Virus record (IMG/VR): IMGVR_UViG_3300042691_010606
Span: 1 to 31,662 of that record
Strand: one strand, 5' to 3'
Source: a virus
DNA length: 31,662 bases
Shown: positions 18,099-31,662 of the stretch, piece after piece
Layout: every line of letters starts with the position of its first letter
How positions within the stretch are numbered: position 1 is the first letter of the stretch
Notes under the pieces: model-generated
Database searches by the model: none
What the model was told of the DNA's origin: nothing
What the model saw: only the letters and a program-made list of their open reading frames with translations
Program-made: the position numbers and the translations under genes

Positions 18099-18111
18099 AC
18101 ACTTGAAGTGT
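18099..18111. repeat. 13-bp palindrome ACACTTGAAGTGT
   Basis: Six-base arms ACACTT and AAGTGT are perfectly inverted around one G. It lies 14 bp after the mirror repeat, at the edge of the C/A-rich stretch, and is a possible protein-binding site. Confidence 0.45.
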
Positions 18112-18350
18112 CGGCCACCCACCAACCGTAAAACACCACCCACAGTAGTCAACCCACCACACCCAGCCCCCAACCAACCAGCCACCCACCAAAAGAGTGA
18201 ATATAGCCAGTCACGTAATACATATATAACCACCCCCCCTCAGCCTCGGCAGACCCCCAGTCTAGACTTTTTCCCCACACGCACGGGCTTGGACTTTCCT
18301 TCTAATCTTCCCGTCTAGCCTGTCGCCCCAGACTTCAAGTCTAGAACACA

Positions 18351-18395
18351 CCCCCATACTTGCACCATGCAAACAACACCCCCCCCATACTTGCA
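18351..18395. repeat. Direct repeat CCCCCATACTTGCA, two copies
   Basis: The 14-base unit occurs at 18351-18364 and again at 18382-18395, a period of 31 bp (about three helical turns), so a bound protein would sit on the same face. About 60 bp further on, TGTTTGCG and TGTTTGCA form another loose repeat. Two copies are few for an iteron array, but the context is suggestive. Confidence 0.5.
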
Positions 18396-18419
18396 GAGAG
18401 AAACTAACTAGCGGATTAG

Positions 18420-18522: not shown

Positions 18523-18538
18523 TGTGACGGATGTCACA
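18523..18538. promoter_or_regulatory. CRP/GlxR-type operator, site 1
   Basis: TGTGACGGATGTCACA fits TGTGA-N6-TCACA, the consensus for CRP-family proteins (E. coli CRP, corynebacterial GlxR, mycobacterial Crp). It ends exactly 10 bases before the -35 of the first early promoter. The core TGTGAC-N4-GTCA is shared with sites 2 and 3. Confidence 0.7.
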
Positions 18539-18548
18539 TAGGAAAGGC

Positions 18549-18577
18549 TTGACATTCTCCCTGTACCGTGATACACT
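18549..18577 (+). promoter_or_regulatory. Early promoter 1
   Basis: TTGACA (18549-18554), a 17-base spacer and TACACT (18572-18577) form a near-ideal vegetative promoter with a perfect -35 and an actinobacterial-style TAnnnT -10. The start should fall near 18584. Just after it, GTCGG-GTGA-CCGAC (18590-18603) makes a tight hairpin with a GNRA-type loop in the leader RNA. Confidence 0.8.
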
Positions 18578-18620
18578 TGTTTTCACAAGGTCGGGTGACC
18601 GACTGAGTAAGTCTAGAGAG

Positions 18621-18636
18621 TGTGACGAAAGTCACA
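18621..18636. promoter_or_regulatory. CRP/GlxR-type operator, site 2
   Basis: TGTGACGAAAGTCACA fits TGTGA-N6-TCACA perfectly and, like site 1, ends exactly 10 bases before a -35 box. The stretch from the site through GGAAAGnCTTGACA is nearly identical in both modules, so the promoter unit appears duplicated. Confidence 0.7.
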
Positions 18637-18646
18637 AGGGAAAGAC

Positions 18647-18675
18647 TTGACAAAGTGTGGAACACTTGGTAGAGT
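18647..18675 (+). promoter_or_regulatory. Early promoter 2
   Basis: TTGACA (18647-18652), a 17-base spacer and TAGAGT (18670-18675) mirror early promoter 1, 98 bp further on. The expected start is near 18682. This rules out translation of the first gene from the in-frame ATG at 18676 for this transcript and supports the ATG at 18730. Confidence 0.8.
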
Positions 18676-18695: not shown

Positions 18696-18711
18696 TGTTC
18701 CACGTGGAACA
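18696..18711. promoter_or_regulatory. parS-like 16-bp palindrome
   Basis: TGTTCCACGTGGAACA is a perfect palindrome and differs from the widespread ParB-binding parS consensus TGTTTCACGTGAAACA only at two symmetric positions. The TTCCACGTGGAA form is the one known from Pseudomonas parS. It lies in the leader of the first early gene, just after the start of early promoter 2. No other full copy was seen and no ParB gene is in the window. Confidence 0.6.
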
Positions 18712-18729: not shown

Positions 18730-18936
18730 ATGGTGACTGTTTACATGAAACACAGATACAACCCTAGTCGGGGGATGTTCTACCTAGACAGGGAAGGGAA
18801 CCCAACAAAAGAGAAAGGCTACGTAGTCTTCACTGGCGACATGGAAGAATCCCTAGCCTACATTAGTGGCATGGAAGAAAGGGAAGAACCCTACGACGTA
18901 GATTGGGGATCAGGGGGTTGGGTAGTCAAGTGGTAA
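18730..18936 (+). CDS. First early-operon protein (68 aa), unknown function
   Basis: This protein begins MVTVYMKHRYNPSRGMFYLD and ends GSGGWVVKW. The ATG at 18730 follows AAAGGGGAAAAC, a strong Shine-Dalgarno. It is polar with an acidic C-terminal half and many aromatic residues, and has no membrane segment or Cys cluster. As the first gene behind two strong promoters it should be among the first proteins made. No family is recognised; position suggests host takeover (inference). Confidence 0.82.
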   Translation: MVTVYMKHRYNPSRGMFYLDREGNPTKEKGYVVFTGDMEESLAYISGMEEREEPYDVDWGSGGWVVKW

Positions 18937-20000: not shown

Positions 20001-20174
20001 ATGAACAAGACTTTGGATATTACAGTCGAACGTATCCCCCATAGCGGTGCTCTTATGTGCACGGCGCTTATCGTGGATAGGTACGGTGACGAATACTATG
20101 TGACACGCACGTTTTATGGTTACGGTAAGCAAGAGTCTGTACGTCTGATGCGTGAGTATTTGGTGACGTTGTGA
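20001..20174 (+). CDS. Early-operon protein (57 aa), unknown function
   Basis: This protein begins MNKTLDITVERIPHSGALMC. It follows a GGAAGGGAACAACA leader, which fixes the ATG at 20001. Beta-strand alternation (CTALIVDRYGDEYYVTRTFY) suggests a small all-beta or alpha/beta protein. Its stop codon lies inside the third CRP-type site, so the next promoter starts where this gene ends. Confidence 0.78.
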   Translation: MNKTLDITVERIPHSGALMCTALIVDRYGDEYYVTRTFYGYGKQESVRLMREYLVTL

Positions 20175-20185
20175 CAAGTGTCATT
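20170..20185. promoter_or_regulatory. CRP/GlxR-type operator, site 3 (degenerate)
   Basis: TGTGACAAGTGTCATT keeps TGTGA and the core TGTGAC-N4-GTCA but loses the last two bases of the right arm. It ends exactly 10 bases before a -35, the same spacing as sites 1 and 2. Confidence 0.5.
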
Positions 20186-20195
20186 AGATAACCAC

Positions 20196-20224
20196 TTGAC
20201 AAGCGTTTTACAATAGGGAATAAT
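20196..20224 (+). promoter_or_regulatory. Internal early promoter 3
   Basis: TTGACA (20196-20201), a 17-base spacer and AATAAT (20219-20224, one mismatch) form a strong promoter inside the early operon. The message would start near 20231 and begin with a run of CAA triplets (six copies, 20228-20245) before GAAAGGGAACAACA and the ATG at 20261. CAA runs are unstructured and can favour translation. Confidence 0.75.
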
Positions 20225-23519: not shown

Positions 23520-23816
23520 TTATCTCCTGAGACGTTCGTTCCATTCACGATTCGACAGGATTTCCCTGCGTTGTTCGGGTGTCGTGCCACCCCACACCCC
23601 ATGAAACTGGAGTGTCTCCTTCTCATGCACTAACTGTGTCTCAAGACAGGGTTTCTTTACGGTGCAACCGTCACAGAACGCTAGTGCCTGCGAGTACAGG
23701 AGTTTTAGTTTGTTGCCACCGTCTCCTTTGCCGATGTCGGGGAAGAACACGGTGTAGTTATCAGTCGATACCCCTTTGCAGTTGGCTTTCTCATGCCACT
23801 CTTTACGACTTTGCAC
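23520..23816 (-). CDS. WhiB-like transcription factor
   Basis: This 98-aa protein is of a family restricted to actinobacteria and their phages. The four iron-sulfur Cys are present: Cys13, then Cys48-x2-Cys51-x5-Cys57. The GVWGG turn (FHGVWGGTTPEQ) and a basic C-terminal tail (REILSNREWNERLRR) follow, as needed for sigma-factor and DNA contact. It starts with GTG at 23816 after GGAG. It is the last gene of its operon and overlaps the preceding small gene by 14 bp. Phage WhiB proteins (for example WhiBTM4) can repress host WhiB2; a similar role is inferred. Confidence 0.93.
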   Translation of the reverse strand: MQSRKEWHEKANCKGVSTDNYTVFFPDIGKGDGGNKLKLLYSQALAFCDGCTVKKPCLETQLVHEKETLQFHGVWGGTTPEQRREILSNREWNERLRR

Positions 23817-26817: not shown

Positions 26818-27127
26818 TAGGGTTACTCCATTCGTTCTCGAACCAGAGGTCGCCGTACACAGTCCACGGATGATGCCCAAGTTTGATGCACCACCTGTCT
26901 GCCAGATACAACCTCACTCCAGTTTCTTTGCTTGCGTTGTAGAACTTCATATGGTTCTTCTTCATGTCTGCGGGCATCAGGTTCCAGATCGGTTCGATAG
27001 GGAAATACGGTTCACGTTCTTTCCGTGCCTCCCTACGCTGTTGGTTGTAGATCCTGACTGCTTCGGTACATAAAGCACACCGACATTTGTCGATGTCGTA
27101 CTTGTTTTTTGTGCCACACTTCCGCAT
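26810..27127 (-). CDS. Small protein with CRCxxC motif (105 aa)
   Basis: This protein begins MRKCGTKNKYDIDKCRCALC. The C-G-T then KCRCALC-TEAVRIYNQQRRE plan matches a group of actinophage proteins that read HGT-Y-GCRC-C, thought to bind zinc and perhaps DNA. The end (ADRWCIKLGHHPWTVYGDLW) resembles a short helix-turn motif (A-x-LG-HP-x-V-x-W) also recurrent in actinophage proteins. Both are recalled, not searched. Possibly a small regulator. Confidence 0.75.
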   Translation of the reverse strand: MRKCGTKNKYDIDKCRCALCTEAVRIYNQQRREARKEREPYFPIEPIWNLMPADMKKNHMKFYNASKETGVRLYLADRWCIKLGHHPWTVYGDLWFENEWSNPSE

Positions 27128-27318
27128 CAGAACGGCTCGGGTCGCATCACCAGATCATGCTCGAAGTTCAGTAGGCGACGGAACAGTTCAGACCGTGAGC
27201 ATTGCTTGAGGTCACACAGTTCAGCGATCATTCCCAACTGCTTTTCTGTTACACGGATGCCGATGATCTTGACCGAAGGGGCCAACGCATCAGGGTCAAC
27301 AGTTCGCTTGTTAGCCAT
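27127..27318 (-). CDS. Ribbon-helix-helix DNA-binding protein (63 aa)
   Basis: This protein begins MANKRTVDPDALAPSVKIIG. The strand KIIGIRVTEKQ followed by LGMIAELCDLKQCSRSELFR has the Arc/CopG ribbon-helix-helix plan, with the S-R-S-E-L-F-R second helix. The ATG at 27318 overlaps the stop of ERF (TGATG); a GTG just before is possible. Such proteins bind palindromic operators as dimers of dimers. It is one of only two clear transcription regulators in the window (with WhiB), so it is a candidate for the palindromes in the hub. Confidence 0.82.
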   Translation of the reverse strand: MANKRTVDPDALAPSVKIIGIRVTEKQLGMIAELCDLKQCSRSELFRRLLNFEHDLVMRPEPF

Positions 27319-28001
27319 CACGCACCTTCCTTCTCTGTCTTAAGTTCCTTGAACGCCATACGCAACGCAGGGATGTCGGACTCTTTGACATCCCCGTCCC
27401 AATCAACACCGGCCTTTGCTGCCATTGCCTGCACAGCGATACCGGCGTTAGCGCAAGCAGCCATGAGTTGCTGACGCTGTTCGTTGGACAGCAGACCGTC
27501 CAGTTCCTCGGCACGGGGAGCAGGCTTAGCCTTCGACCCGATAGCACTACGGGCAGGTGCGGGGGCACGTTCGTAGACATCGTGGTCGGGGTCTTGTTCG
27601 TCGGTTGGCAGGGCCAACGTCTGCAACAAGCAGGTACGGAACGCTACTGACATAGCCTTGGCGGTGGCCTTGTCACCGGAGTCCATCGACTCGGCGCACA
27701 CGGTCGCTGGCAAGTACGAGCCGTCAGGCGCATAGAACTTGTAGGTGACGGTGACACGGGCATGGCCCATCATCGTGCGGTTCTTCCCCACTTCGACGGT
27801 GTTGTATTCGATTGACTGCACCTCAGGGGTGACAACCACGCCATGCTTACGGAGGGCAGGCGACACAGCGTTCACGACCGCATCAATGCCTCGGAAGTTG
27901 AAGTTCTGCTGTTGGTTCTTTTCAGACTTGCGTACTGCACCGACATCCTCCATAACCTTGGCGAGTAGTTCGATGATTTGGACATTGGGTTTTGTTTCCA
28001 T
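27318..28001 (-). CDS. erf: ERF-family single-strand annealing protein (227 aa)
   Basis: This protein begins METKPNVQIIELLAKVMEDV. GAVRKSEKNQQQNFNFRGID and AVVNAVSPALRKHGVVVTPE are typical of ERF proteins (P22 Erf type), as is the later FRTCLLQTLALPTDEQDPD. The C-terminal part (from about residue 150) is variable and probably recruits partners. It pairs complementary strands after the exonuclease resects the ends. The ATG at 28001 overlaps the YqaJ stop (TAATG), so both are co-made; longer in-frame starts inside YqaJ are ignored. Confidence 0.92.
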   Translation of the reverse strand: METKPNVQIIELLAKVMEDVGAVRKSEKNQQQNFNFRGIDAVVNAVSPALRKHGVVVTPEVQSIEYNTVEVGKNRTMMGHARVTVTYKFYAPDGSYLPATVCAESMDSGDKATAKAMSVAFRTCLLQTLALPTDEQDPDHDVYERAPAPARSAIGSKAKPAPRAEELDGLLSNEQRQQLMAACANAGIAVQAMAAKAGVDWDGDVKESDIPALRMAFKELKTEKEGA

Positions 28002-30700: not shown

Positions 30701-31662
30701 TCATCTGCGGCGCATCACCGTAGGGGCTGCGACCATGACAGCCCCGACAGCGACAAGGACACGGCGCTGGCCTACCGTCACATTGGAATCCAACGGTACG
30801 TAGGTGTCTAGCCCGCCGCTGAAGATGTTGACCTGATCTTCGAACTCTCGTTTCACTTCGGGTGGGGCTTCGGACAGGGTTTTAGAAATAAGTTCTAGTT
30901 CCTCAACCGTTAAACTGTCTAGGTTTTCTGCGATCACAGCCACAGCCTCAGCCACCTGCTCAGGGCTAGCGCCTTCAGACAGGACGCTCGCCGCTTCAGT
31001 CGGAGTCTGGGGAACCAGAGTCGAACCGCTCACCTGACCAACCGTAGAAGTGGTTGAAGGGCTTGTAGTAACCGATGATGGGGCTGTCGGAACCACGGTA
31101 GAGGCGGTGGATGGTGGGTTCGTGGTGGCAATAACTGTCGTAGTTGATGGCCTCGTAGAAGTTGTCACCAGAGTCGTAGTCGTCGATTGCGTCACAGACG
31201 GCGATGATGATTCCAACGGCGGGGTTAGCGGCAATGTAGTCGGCAAGGTCGATGGGGATAACGGGGTTTCCGTTGTCGTCGTACTCGGTTCCATCGTGGT
31301 CGATGTCGTCGAAGTCGATGTCGTCGTGGTTTCCTCGGGCTGTGTCGTCGTAGTTGTGGACGATGTTTGCGAACTCTGCGTAGTCTCTGGCTCGCTCGTA
31401 GGCGGCACTATGCTCGTCGTCGTCGTACTGTCCCATGCAGGCATGGTAGTAGATGGGGGGAGTGTCGGCACAACCTGAGTGGCTGATGCGTACAGGTCAT
31501 ACAGCACCCCGTTGTACCAAGCCTCAGGGTTCCCGCAACACACACCGGCCCTCAGCCGGTACCATCCTGGCTGGACTTCGATAACAATGTTTGATTGCAA
31601 CCCGAACCAGTCGTCGTTCTGTACCAGTAGTTGACCGTCAGAGTTGTAGAACCACAACATCG
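30701..31662 (-). CDS. Thr/Ser/Pro-rich surface protein with C-terminal membrane anchor (N-terminus outside window)
   Basis: The frame is open to the window edge. About the first 60 visible residues (MLWFYNSDGQLLVQNDDWFG, then VQPGWYRLRAGVC) look like a PPC-type calcium-binding beta domain (L-x-x-N-D-D then PG-Y). Then about 170 residues are mostly Thr, Ser and Pro, a mucin-like stalk. A helical acidic part follows (EQVAEAVAVIAENLDSLTVE). The end VGQRRVLVAVGAVMVAAPTV then MRRR is a membrane helix with a basic stop, as in actinobacterial surface proteins. It may be displayed on the host cell or on virions. Confidence 0.8.
   Translation of the reverse strand, partial: MLWFYNSDGQLLVQNDDWFGLQSNIVIEVQPGWYRLRAGVCCGNPEAWYNGVLYDLYASATQVVPTLPPSTTMPAWDSTTTTSIVPPTSEPETTQSSQTSSTTTTTQPEETTTTSTSTTSTTMEPSTTTTETPLSPSTLPTTLPLTPPLESSSPSVTQSTTTTLVTTSTRPSTTTVIATTNPPSTASTVVPTAPSSVTTSPSTTSTVGQVSGSTLVPQTPTEAASVLSEGASPEQVAEAVAVIAENLDSLTVEELELISKTLSEAPPEVKREFEDQVNIFSGGLDTYVPLDSNVTVGQRRVLVAVGAVMVAAPTVMRRR
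31090..31440 (-). repeat. Low-complexity Thr/Ser/Pro-coding tract
   Basis: Repeated ACN, TCN and CCN codons give a run such as TTTTTQPEETTTTSTSTTST. The plus strand is therefore GTCGT/GTAGT-rich, which also makes a long false open frame there. Such tracts expand and shrink readily. Confidence 0.8.

Follow-up and report, generated by a model that had tools for sequence, protein, structure and literature searches.

Introduction

Palindromes of the TGTGA type stand upstream of sigma-70 promoters such as lac and gal in E. coli, where the class I arrangement, as at lac, leaves about N17 between the site and the -35 and centres the site near -61.5 or a helical multiple of it, and the class II arrangement centres it near -41.5, over the -35. 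Two relatives of this system have closely similar sites: GlxR of C. glutamicum, whose binding is cAMP-dependent and which can activate, as at ldhA, recognizes TGTGA-N6-TCACA (PMC7999487), and for Crp of S. coelicolor Gao et al. (2012), cited in PMC10033298, gave GTG(N)6GNCAC, which is reported at hundreds of host genes. Phage promoters can also answer host cAMP-CRP, since the pir, dam and recE promoters of coliphage T1 are repressed by it (PMC6737242); the initial annotation of the DNA studied here, which held that a phage reading host CRP would be unusual, should be softened in light of that precedent.

Here we analyze a 31,662-base viral record (IMG/VR IMGVR_UViG_3300042691_010606, positions 1 to 31,662; the window) in which CRP-type palindromes precede putative early promoters. 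These candidate operators resemble the GlxR operators in consensus (PMC7999487) and differ in being viral, in carrying C6/G11 and in their fixed distance of 10 bases to a consensus -35. They match each letter of the S. coelicolor Crp motif (PMC10033298), including a G that GlxR does not require, whereas among the actinobacterial genomes sampled the full viral module hardly occurs. In T1 the host is E. coli and CRP represses, and the available text on that phage describes no recurrent fixed-spacing module common to many phages. The E. coli class I and class II promoters share the palindrome type and differ in where it is centred. Freshwater actinophages that carry WhiB, among them phages E7 and F5, have WhiB and a freshwater origin in common with our virus, and the available portions of the papers on them describe no CRP-type operators (PMC6802176, PMC10202952). 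Full-text searches of open papers turned up no description of modules of the CRP type in actinophages. Control of phage promoters by host CRP is known from T1, and what is new is a distinct fixed geometry that recurs in actinophage early promoters. We propose, with a probability of roughly 0.6, that the palindromes are operators for a host CRP/GlxR-family regulator that drives the early operon, with cAMP-CRP acting as an activator.

Three palindrome–promoter modules in the window

The features of the early region are as follows.

18523–18538, plus strand: candidate operator 1, TGTGACGGATGTCACA, a perfect 6-4-6 palindrome TGTGAC-N4-GTCACA, read directly
18539–18548, plus strand: N10 segment from operator 1 to the -35, TAGGAAAGGC, read directly (family logo below)
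18549–18577, plus strand: putative early promoter 1, TTGACA (18549–18554), 17 bases, TACACT (18572–18577)
18621–18636, plus strand: candidate operator 2, TGTGACGAAAGTCACA, a perfect palindrome 98 bases after operator 1
18637–18646, plus strand: N10 segment from operator 2 to the -35, AGGGAAAGAC, read directly (family logo below)
18647–18675, plus strand: putative early promoter 2, TTGACA (18647–18652), 17 bases, TAGAGT (18670–18675)
18730–18936, plus strand: first small ORF past the tandem promoters, 68 aa, with AAAGGGG just upstream
20170–20185, plus strand: candidate operator 3, TGTGACAAGTGTCATT, with two changes, both in the downstream half
20196–20224, plus strand: putative early promoter 3, following an N10 segment, TTGACA (20196–20201), 17 bases, AATAAT (a weak -10)

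Reading the letters directly bore out most of what the initial annotation had reported: TGTGA-N6-TCACA is perfect at 18523 and 18621 and has two changes at 20170, all three sites stop exactly 10 bases short of a TTGACA, and the shared core TGTGAC-N4-GTCA is found within the record at these three places only. The 17-base spacer to a -10 that had been claimed for all three promoters is present in promoters 1 and 2; in promoter 3 the -10 is less clear than claimed because only AATAAT lies at that distance. Operators 1 and 2 are perfect examples of the CRP/GlxR palindrome and read GTG-ACNNNN-GTCAC, in agreement with the actinobacterial Crp form, so that the proposed identity as CRP/GlxR-type operators is consistent with both published motifs (PMC7999487, PMC10033298). 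Operator 3 overlaps the stop codon of the small ORF before it. The promoters face a series of small plus-strand ORFs at about 18.7–24.1 kb, mostly without relatives in the libraries, to which we give the label early operon from position and promoter type; the terminase, portal and capsid genes of the record are on the minus strand.

Conservation in relatives and fixed spacing across IMG/VR

The window contains two perfect palindromes compared to a shuffle mean of 0.1, and 13 loose matches (up to two mismatches) compared to 19.75 expected. Because the loose matches are not enriched, the case rests on the perfect sites and above all on relatives, of which a portal search gathered 80 related loci. 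A motif scan of the record and these relatives that recorded the distance to the -35, as the initial annotation had suggested, found the module conserved at a spacing of about 10. It recurs several times per genome in the closest loci that reach the early region (L016, L018, L019, L023, L026, L044, L058 and L059), its palindrome varying at the centre while the distance to TTGACA stays almost constant at 10. Close relatives hold one to four palindromes per record (0–0.15 in shuffles), and a tandem operator pair 97–99 bases apart is kept in L018, L023, L026 and L058. Retention of a promoter with loss of its palindrome, the pattern named beforehand as speaking against the idea, was seen once only, at an orthologous promoter in L026. 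The palindrome is absent from all 10 more distant relatives checked, which are full-length or nearly so, and BLAST against INPHARED phages returned no nucleotide relatives of the region or the window.

We then scanned IMG/VR for TGTGA-N6-TCACA followed by TTGACA 0–30 bases on, with no spacing favoured. Among the 90 matches listed, 24 had a spacing of 10, with 7 at 11, 7 at 21 and one to five at each other spacing, and among the 83 matches listed for the C/G form the corresponding counts were 32, 5 and 8, compared to a flat distribution for the reversed motif (2 of the 97 matches listed at spacing 10). Imperfect sites with one or two mismatches, which had been used in no search, showed the same preference (26 at spacing 10, 6 at 11 and no more than 6 at any other spacing); outer positions account for most of their mismatches, and C6/G11 is retained in 17 of the 26 at spacing 10 without having been required. 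Kinship among viruses inflates such counts, and near-identical sequences were merged for the logo, the imperfect-site tally and the tally of positions 6 and 11; many IMG/VR records are fragments. Positions 6 and 11 vary between viruses, with C/G in 47 of 115, T/A in 14 and C/A in 14, in a sample partly selected for C/G. This phage is not alone in having the arrangement, which recurs in many other viruses, including viruses with different gene content, and the relatives together with these collection-wide scans confirm that the arrangement is real.

The lac-like spacing of 17 occurs in 31 stretches in the whole of IMG/VR, compared to at least 119 at spacing 10. Among 25 non-redundant viral sites with spacing 17, nine have TAnnnT 17 bases past TTGACA, so that genuine class I CRP promoters may exist in a few phages.

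Carriers of the module

Two proteins of the window bear on the identity of its host and of the regulator.

23523–23816, minus strand: WhiB-family protein, 98 aa (Pfam PF02467, E = 2.3e-12), which marks actinophages and may co-regulate at the -35
27127–27321, minus strand: ribbon-helix-helix (RHH) protein, 64 aa (Pfam PF01402, 20.8 bits, cut-off 20.5), a rival candidate binder

WhiB is taken as a marker of actinophages (PMC6802176, PMC10202952), and among 99 loci whose module-like site lies at spacing 9–12 only one protein family is shared more widely. In whole records WhiB is encoded by 17 of 20 carriers compared to 3 of 19 viruses in which the motif has another spacing, and because they encode WhiB we regard the carriers and the window virus as actinophages. 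The module is mostly confined to actinophages. WhiB alone was rejected as an explanation for it, as the protein is present in all 10 module-free relatives.

By its capsid the window is related to Streptomyces phages and to the isolated Ca. Planktophila phages E7 and F5, to whose major capsid protein that of the window is about 40% identical. E7 (L320, at 1435 and 2477) and F5 (L321, at 22684 and 22761) each hold exactly two perfect TGTGA-N6-TCACA sites, compared to 0.05–0.2 expected; one E7 site lies at spacing 11 from a TTTACA, and the other E7 and F5 sites lack a clear N10 TTGACA. These phages provide a cultivated system in which the idea is testable. A 16S probe for Nanopelagicales matched none of 396 genomes.

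Candidate binder

Host CRP is our best candidate for the binding protein because the site fits both the Streptomyces Crp motif and the GlxR motif. Between the two binders that the initial annotation had weighed, a host CRP and a phage-encoded regulator of the same specificity, the comparison would favour the former: no Crp gene (PF00325) was found in 20 carriers or in Planktophila phages E7 and F5, which led us to reject a phage-encoded Crp, and no DNA-binding gene was found that tracks the presence of the module among relatives.

Phages commonly supply their own early regulator, and a phage protein with CRP-like specificity, either the RHH protein at 27127–27321 or an unrecognized small early protein, could place these promoters under an internal cascade or immunity-type control. 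We consider this the foremost alternative and nonetheless an unlikely one. The RHH protein is encoded in the window and was found in 14 module-bearing loci; however, it occurs in 5 of 9 module-positive records, several of them fragments, compared to 3 of 10 module-negative records, and we rejected it as the binder given that it does not track the module. Beside WhiB and RHH no other recognizable regulator appeared among the ORFs scanned; the RHH protein was the only Pfam or PHROG repressor among them, and most of the early ORFs are so small or so diverged that they stay candidates. A phage-internal circuit also predicts that host genomes should nearly lack the module, as they do. Against it, the spacing is identical in viruses of clearly different gene content, and the variation at positions 6 and 11 resembles the tolerant centre of a CRP site more than the target of one dedicated protein.

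Two actinobacterial MAGs share the N10 module TGTGACATATGTCACA (L307, 6206–6237, minus strand; L316, 4388–4419, plus strand), which has the same geometry as the viral one and lies ahead of a gene that encodes a secreted 3D-domain protein and may be a target of host CRP. The full module is absent from 395 other Actinomycetota genomes, and a search of 85,000 species gave 12 matches, near chance. Because it is nearly absent from bacterial genomes, the module was not copied from a common host promoter design, and we rejected a copied host regulon as its origin. The two MAGs probably belong to Acidimicrobiia. In that host class the palindrome itself was found 28 times compared to 5 for the reversed control (119 genomes), and the N10 promoter was present, among the 25 host-class loci read, solely at the site before the 3D-domain gene. 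Both MAGs were negative for PF00325 and one, G001, was positive for PF13545. Crp-type HTH proteins are present in the class, and the closest solved structures to one such Crp, which has an ASRE-VNKA helix, are M. tuberculosis CRP and C. glutamicum GlxR.

Promoter geometry and proposed regulatory outcome

If the spacer has 17 bases and transcription starts 7 bases past the -10, the centre of the palindrome falls near -54. This is neither E. coli arrangement: the distance is N10 here, with N17 rare in viruses, and the palindrome stops 10 bases short of TTGACA instead of overlapping the -35 as in class II. The family logo shows A/T at positions 5–6 and C at position 10 of the N10 segment, a consensus -35 and a TAnnGT -10, often with an extended TG. 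Since the spacing peaks at 10, 11 and 21 lie one helical turn apart, they suggest that the bound protein reaches polymerase along a single face of the helix, and fixed helical phasing upstream of the -35 would be more typical of a polymerase-touching activator than of a simple blocking repressor.

We therefore favour activation on the strength of this phasing, the A/T-rich middle of the N10 segment and the TAnnGT -10. Host CRP is probably the binder and probably acts as an activator: a host CRP/GlxR-family regulator would occupy the palindromes ahead of the small-gene early operon (18.7–24.1 kb), and cAMP-CRP, sitting upstream of the -35 by roughly one turn of the helix, would touch RNA polymerase and raise early transcription, which would tie early expression to the cAMP/CRP state of the host. 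CRP as the binder, activation as the effect and the role of cAMP are all three things that we infer from sequence.

The A/T-rich N10 element could also suit a contact by alpha-CTD or by WhiB and sigma. A/T at N10 positions 5–6, just upstream of the -35, and a phage WhiB would fit a WhiB7-type promoter, but WhiB is encoded equally in module-free relatives, and a part for it here is no more than possible. That host cAMP-CRP at about -54 and phage WhiB on sigma-A at the -35 jointly drive the early promoters is a speculative extension that we regard as doubtful. If it were true, early transcription would integrate host nutrient state with a phage redox-type factor, and the modules would represent a widespread actinophage promoter class with an activation arrangement undescribed for E. 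coli CRP.

It is rather improbable that host CRP acts here as a repressor, with the early promoters held down at high cAMP and freed in well-fed cells. T1 offers a parallel in its pir, dam and recE promoters (PMC6737242), and a consensus -35 with an often extended -10 is already present, such that help may be unneeded. However, 10 bases separate the site from the -35, leaving the core promoter uncovered, phased spacings of 10, 11 and 21 are unexpected for simple blocking, and a weak TAnnGT -10 with an A/T-rich N10 centre suits an activated promoter.

Another host protein that reads the TGTGA half-site, such as Rex or a member of a different family, is a poor candidate. The Rex site, TTGTGAA-N4-TTCACAA, has equal half-site spacing; operators 1 and 2 and the sites of close relatives have C6/G11 where Rex has an A/T pair at positions 6 and 11, and no A/T pair is dominant in the wider set. 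Chance palindromes, or an artefact of assembly or composition, we consider negligible, as the loose matches in the window that would fit such an origin are outweighed by the excess of perfect sites, their conservation in relatives and a spacing peak set against a flat reversed control.

If activation by host CRP is right, a large group of uncultured actinophages senses host cAMP/CRP through a stereotyped promoter module, and one could test directly how host nutrition affects the early expression of such phages. It would add a CRP-promoter geometry (N10, phased at 10, 11 and 21) beyond the E. coli classes and provide a sequence tag with which to spot actinophage early promoters in metagenomes. 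Even with another binder, a fixed operator–promoter module in many viruses deserves a name.

Other elements near the promoters and elsewhere

Three further features of the window are recorded here.

18653–18667, plus strand: dyad AAGTGT-GGA-ACACTT with a three-base loop, within the -35/-10 spacer of promoter 2
18696–18711, plus strand: parS-like (ParB) perfect palindrome TGTTCCACGTGGAACA, at about +15 of the promoter 2 transcript, in the presumed leader
30701–31660, minus strand: ORF truncated by the contig end or lying near it, weakly matching RskA_N

Spacer dyads elsewhere include ACCGT/ACGGT, ACTGT/ACAGT and GCGT/ACGC. Dyads with arms of at least 4 bases occur in 9 of 42 module promoters compared to 0.9 expected in shuffles, which raises the question of whether the spacer dyad is a second operator with the core GT-N3-AC. 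We rejected a covarying spacer hairpin as a family-wide feature, finding no systematic covariation over the 42 promoters and perfect arms in a subset only, and for that reason the dyad stands outside the main claim. The dyad and an ORF of 2216 aa, which has no PHROG match, also prompted us to consider N4-type hairpin promoters, which were rejected given that the promoters are of sigma-70 type. In L089 (36–67) and L209 (13188–13219), together with the bases just downstream, the stretch from the TTGACA of an N10 module to the -10 region contains a long perfect inverted repeat, TGCGCCGG-AAAA-CCGGCGCA.

The parS-like site at 18696–18711 is a lead separate from the CRP module. A site of this kind (TGTTYCACGTGRAACA or one base off) lies 75–77 bases past the operator, close to the distance in the window, in L168, L223, L247, L287 and L296, and one is found nearby in the module phages L217, L236 and L264; the reversed control gave none in 5 Mb. 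Unrelated viruses also have parS-like sites after promoters.

The long intergenic stretch at 18100–18400, between the divergent late and early operons, contains C-rich tracts and repeated TCTAGAC / CCCCCATACTTGCA elements. The ORF at 30701–31660 encodes a long linker rich in Thr, Ser and Pro and, at the C-terminus, a hydrophobic stretch plus RRR, and its predicted product looks like an actinobacterial surface protein.
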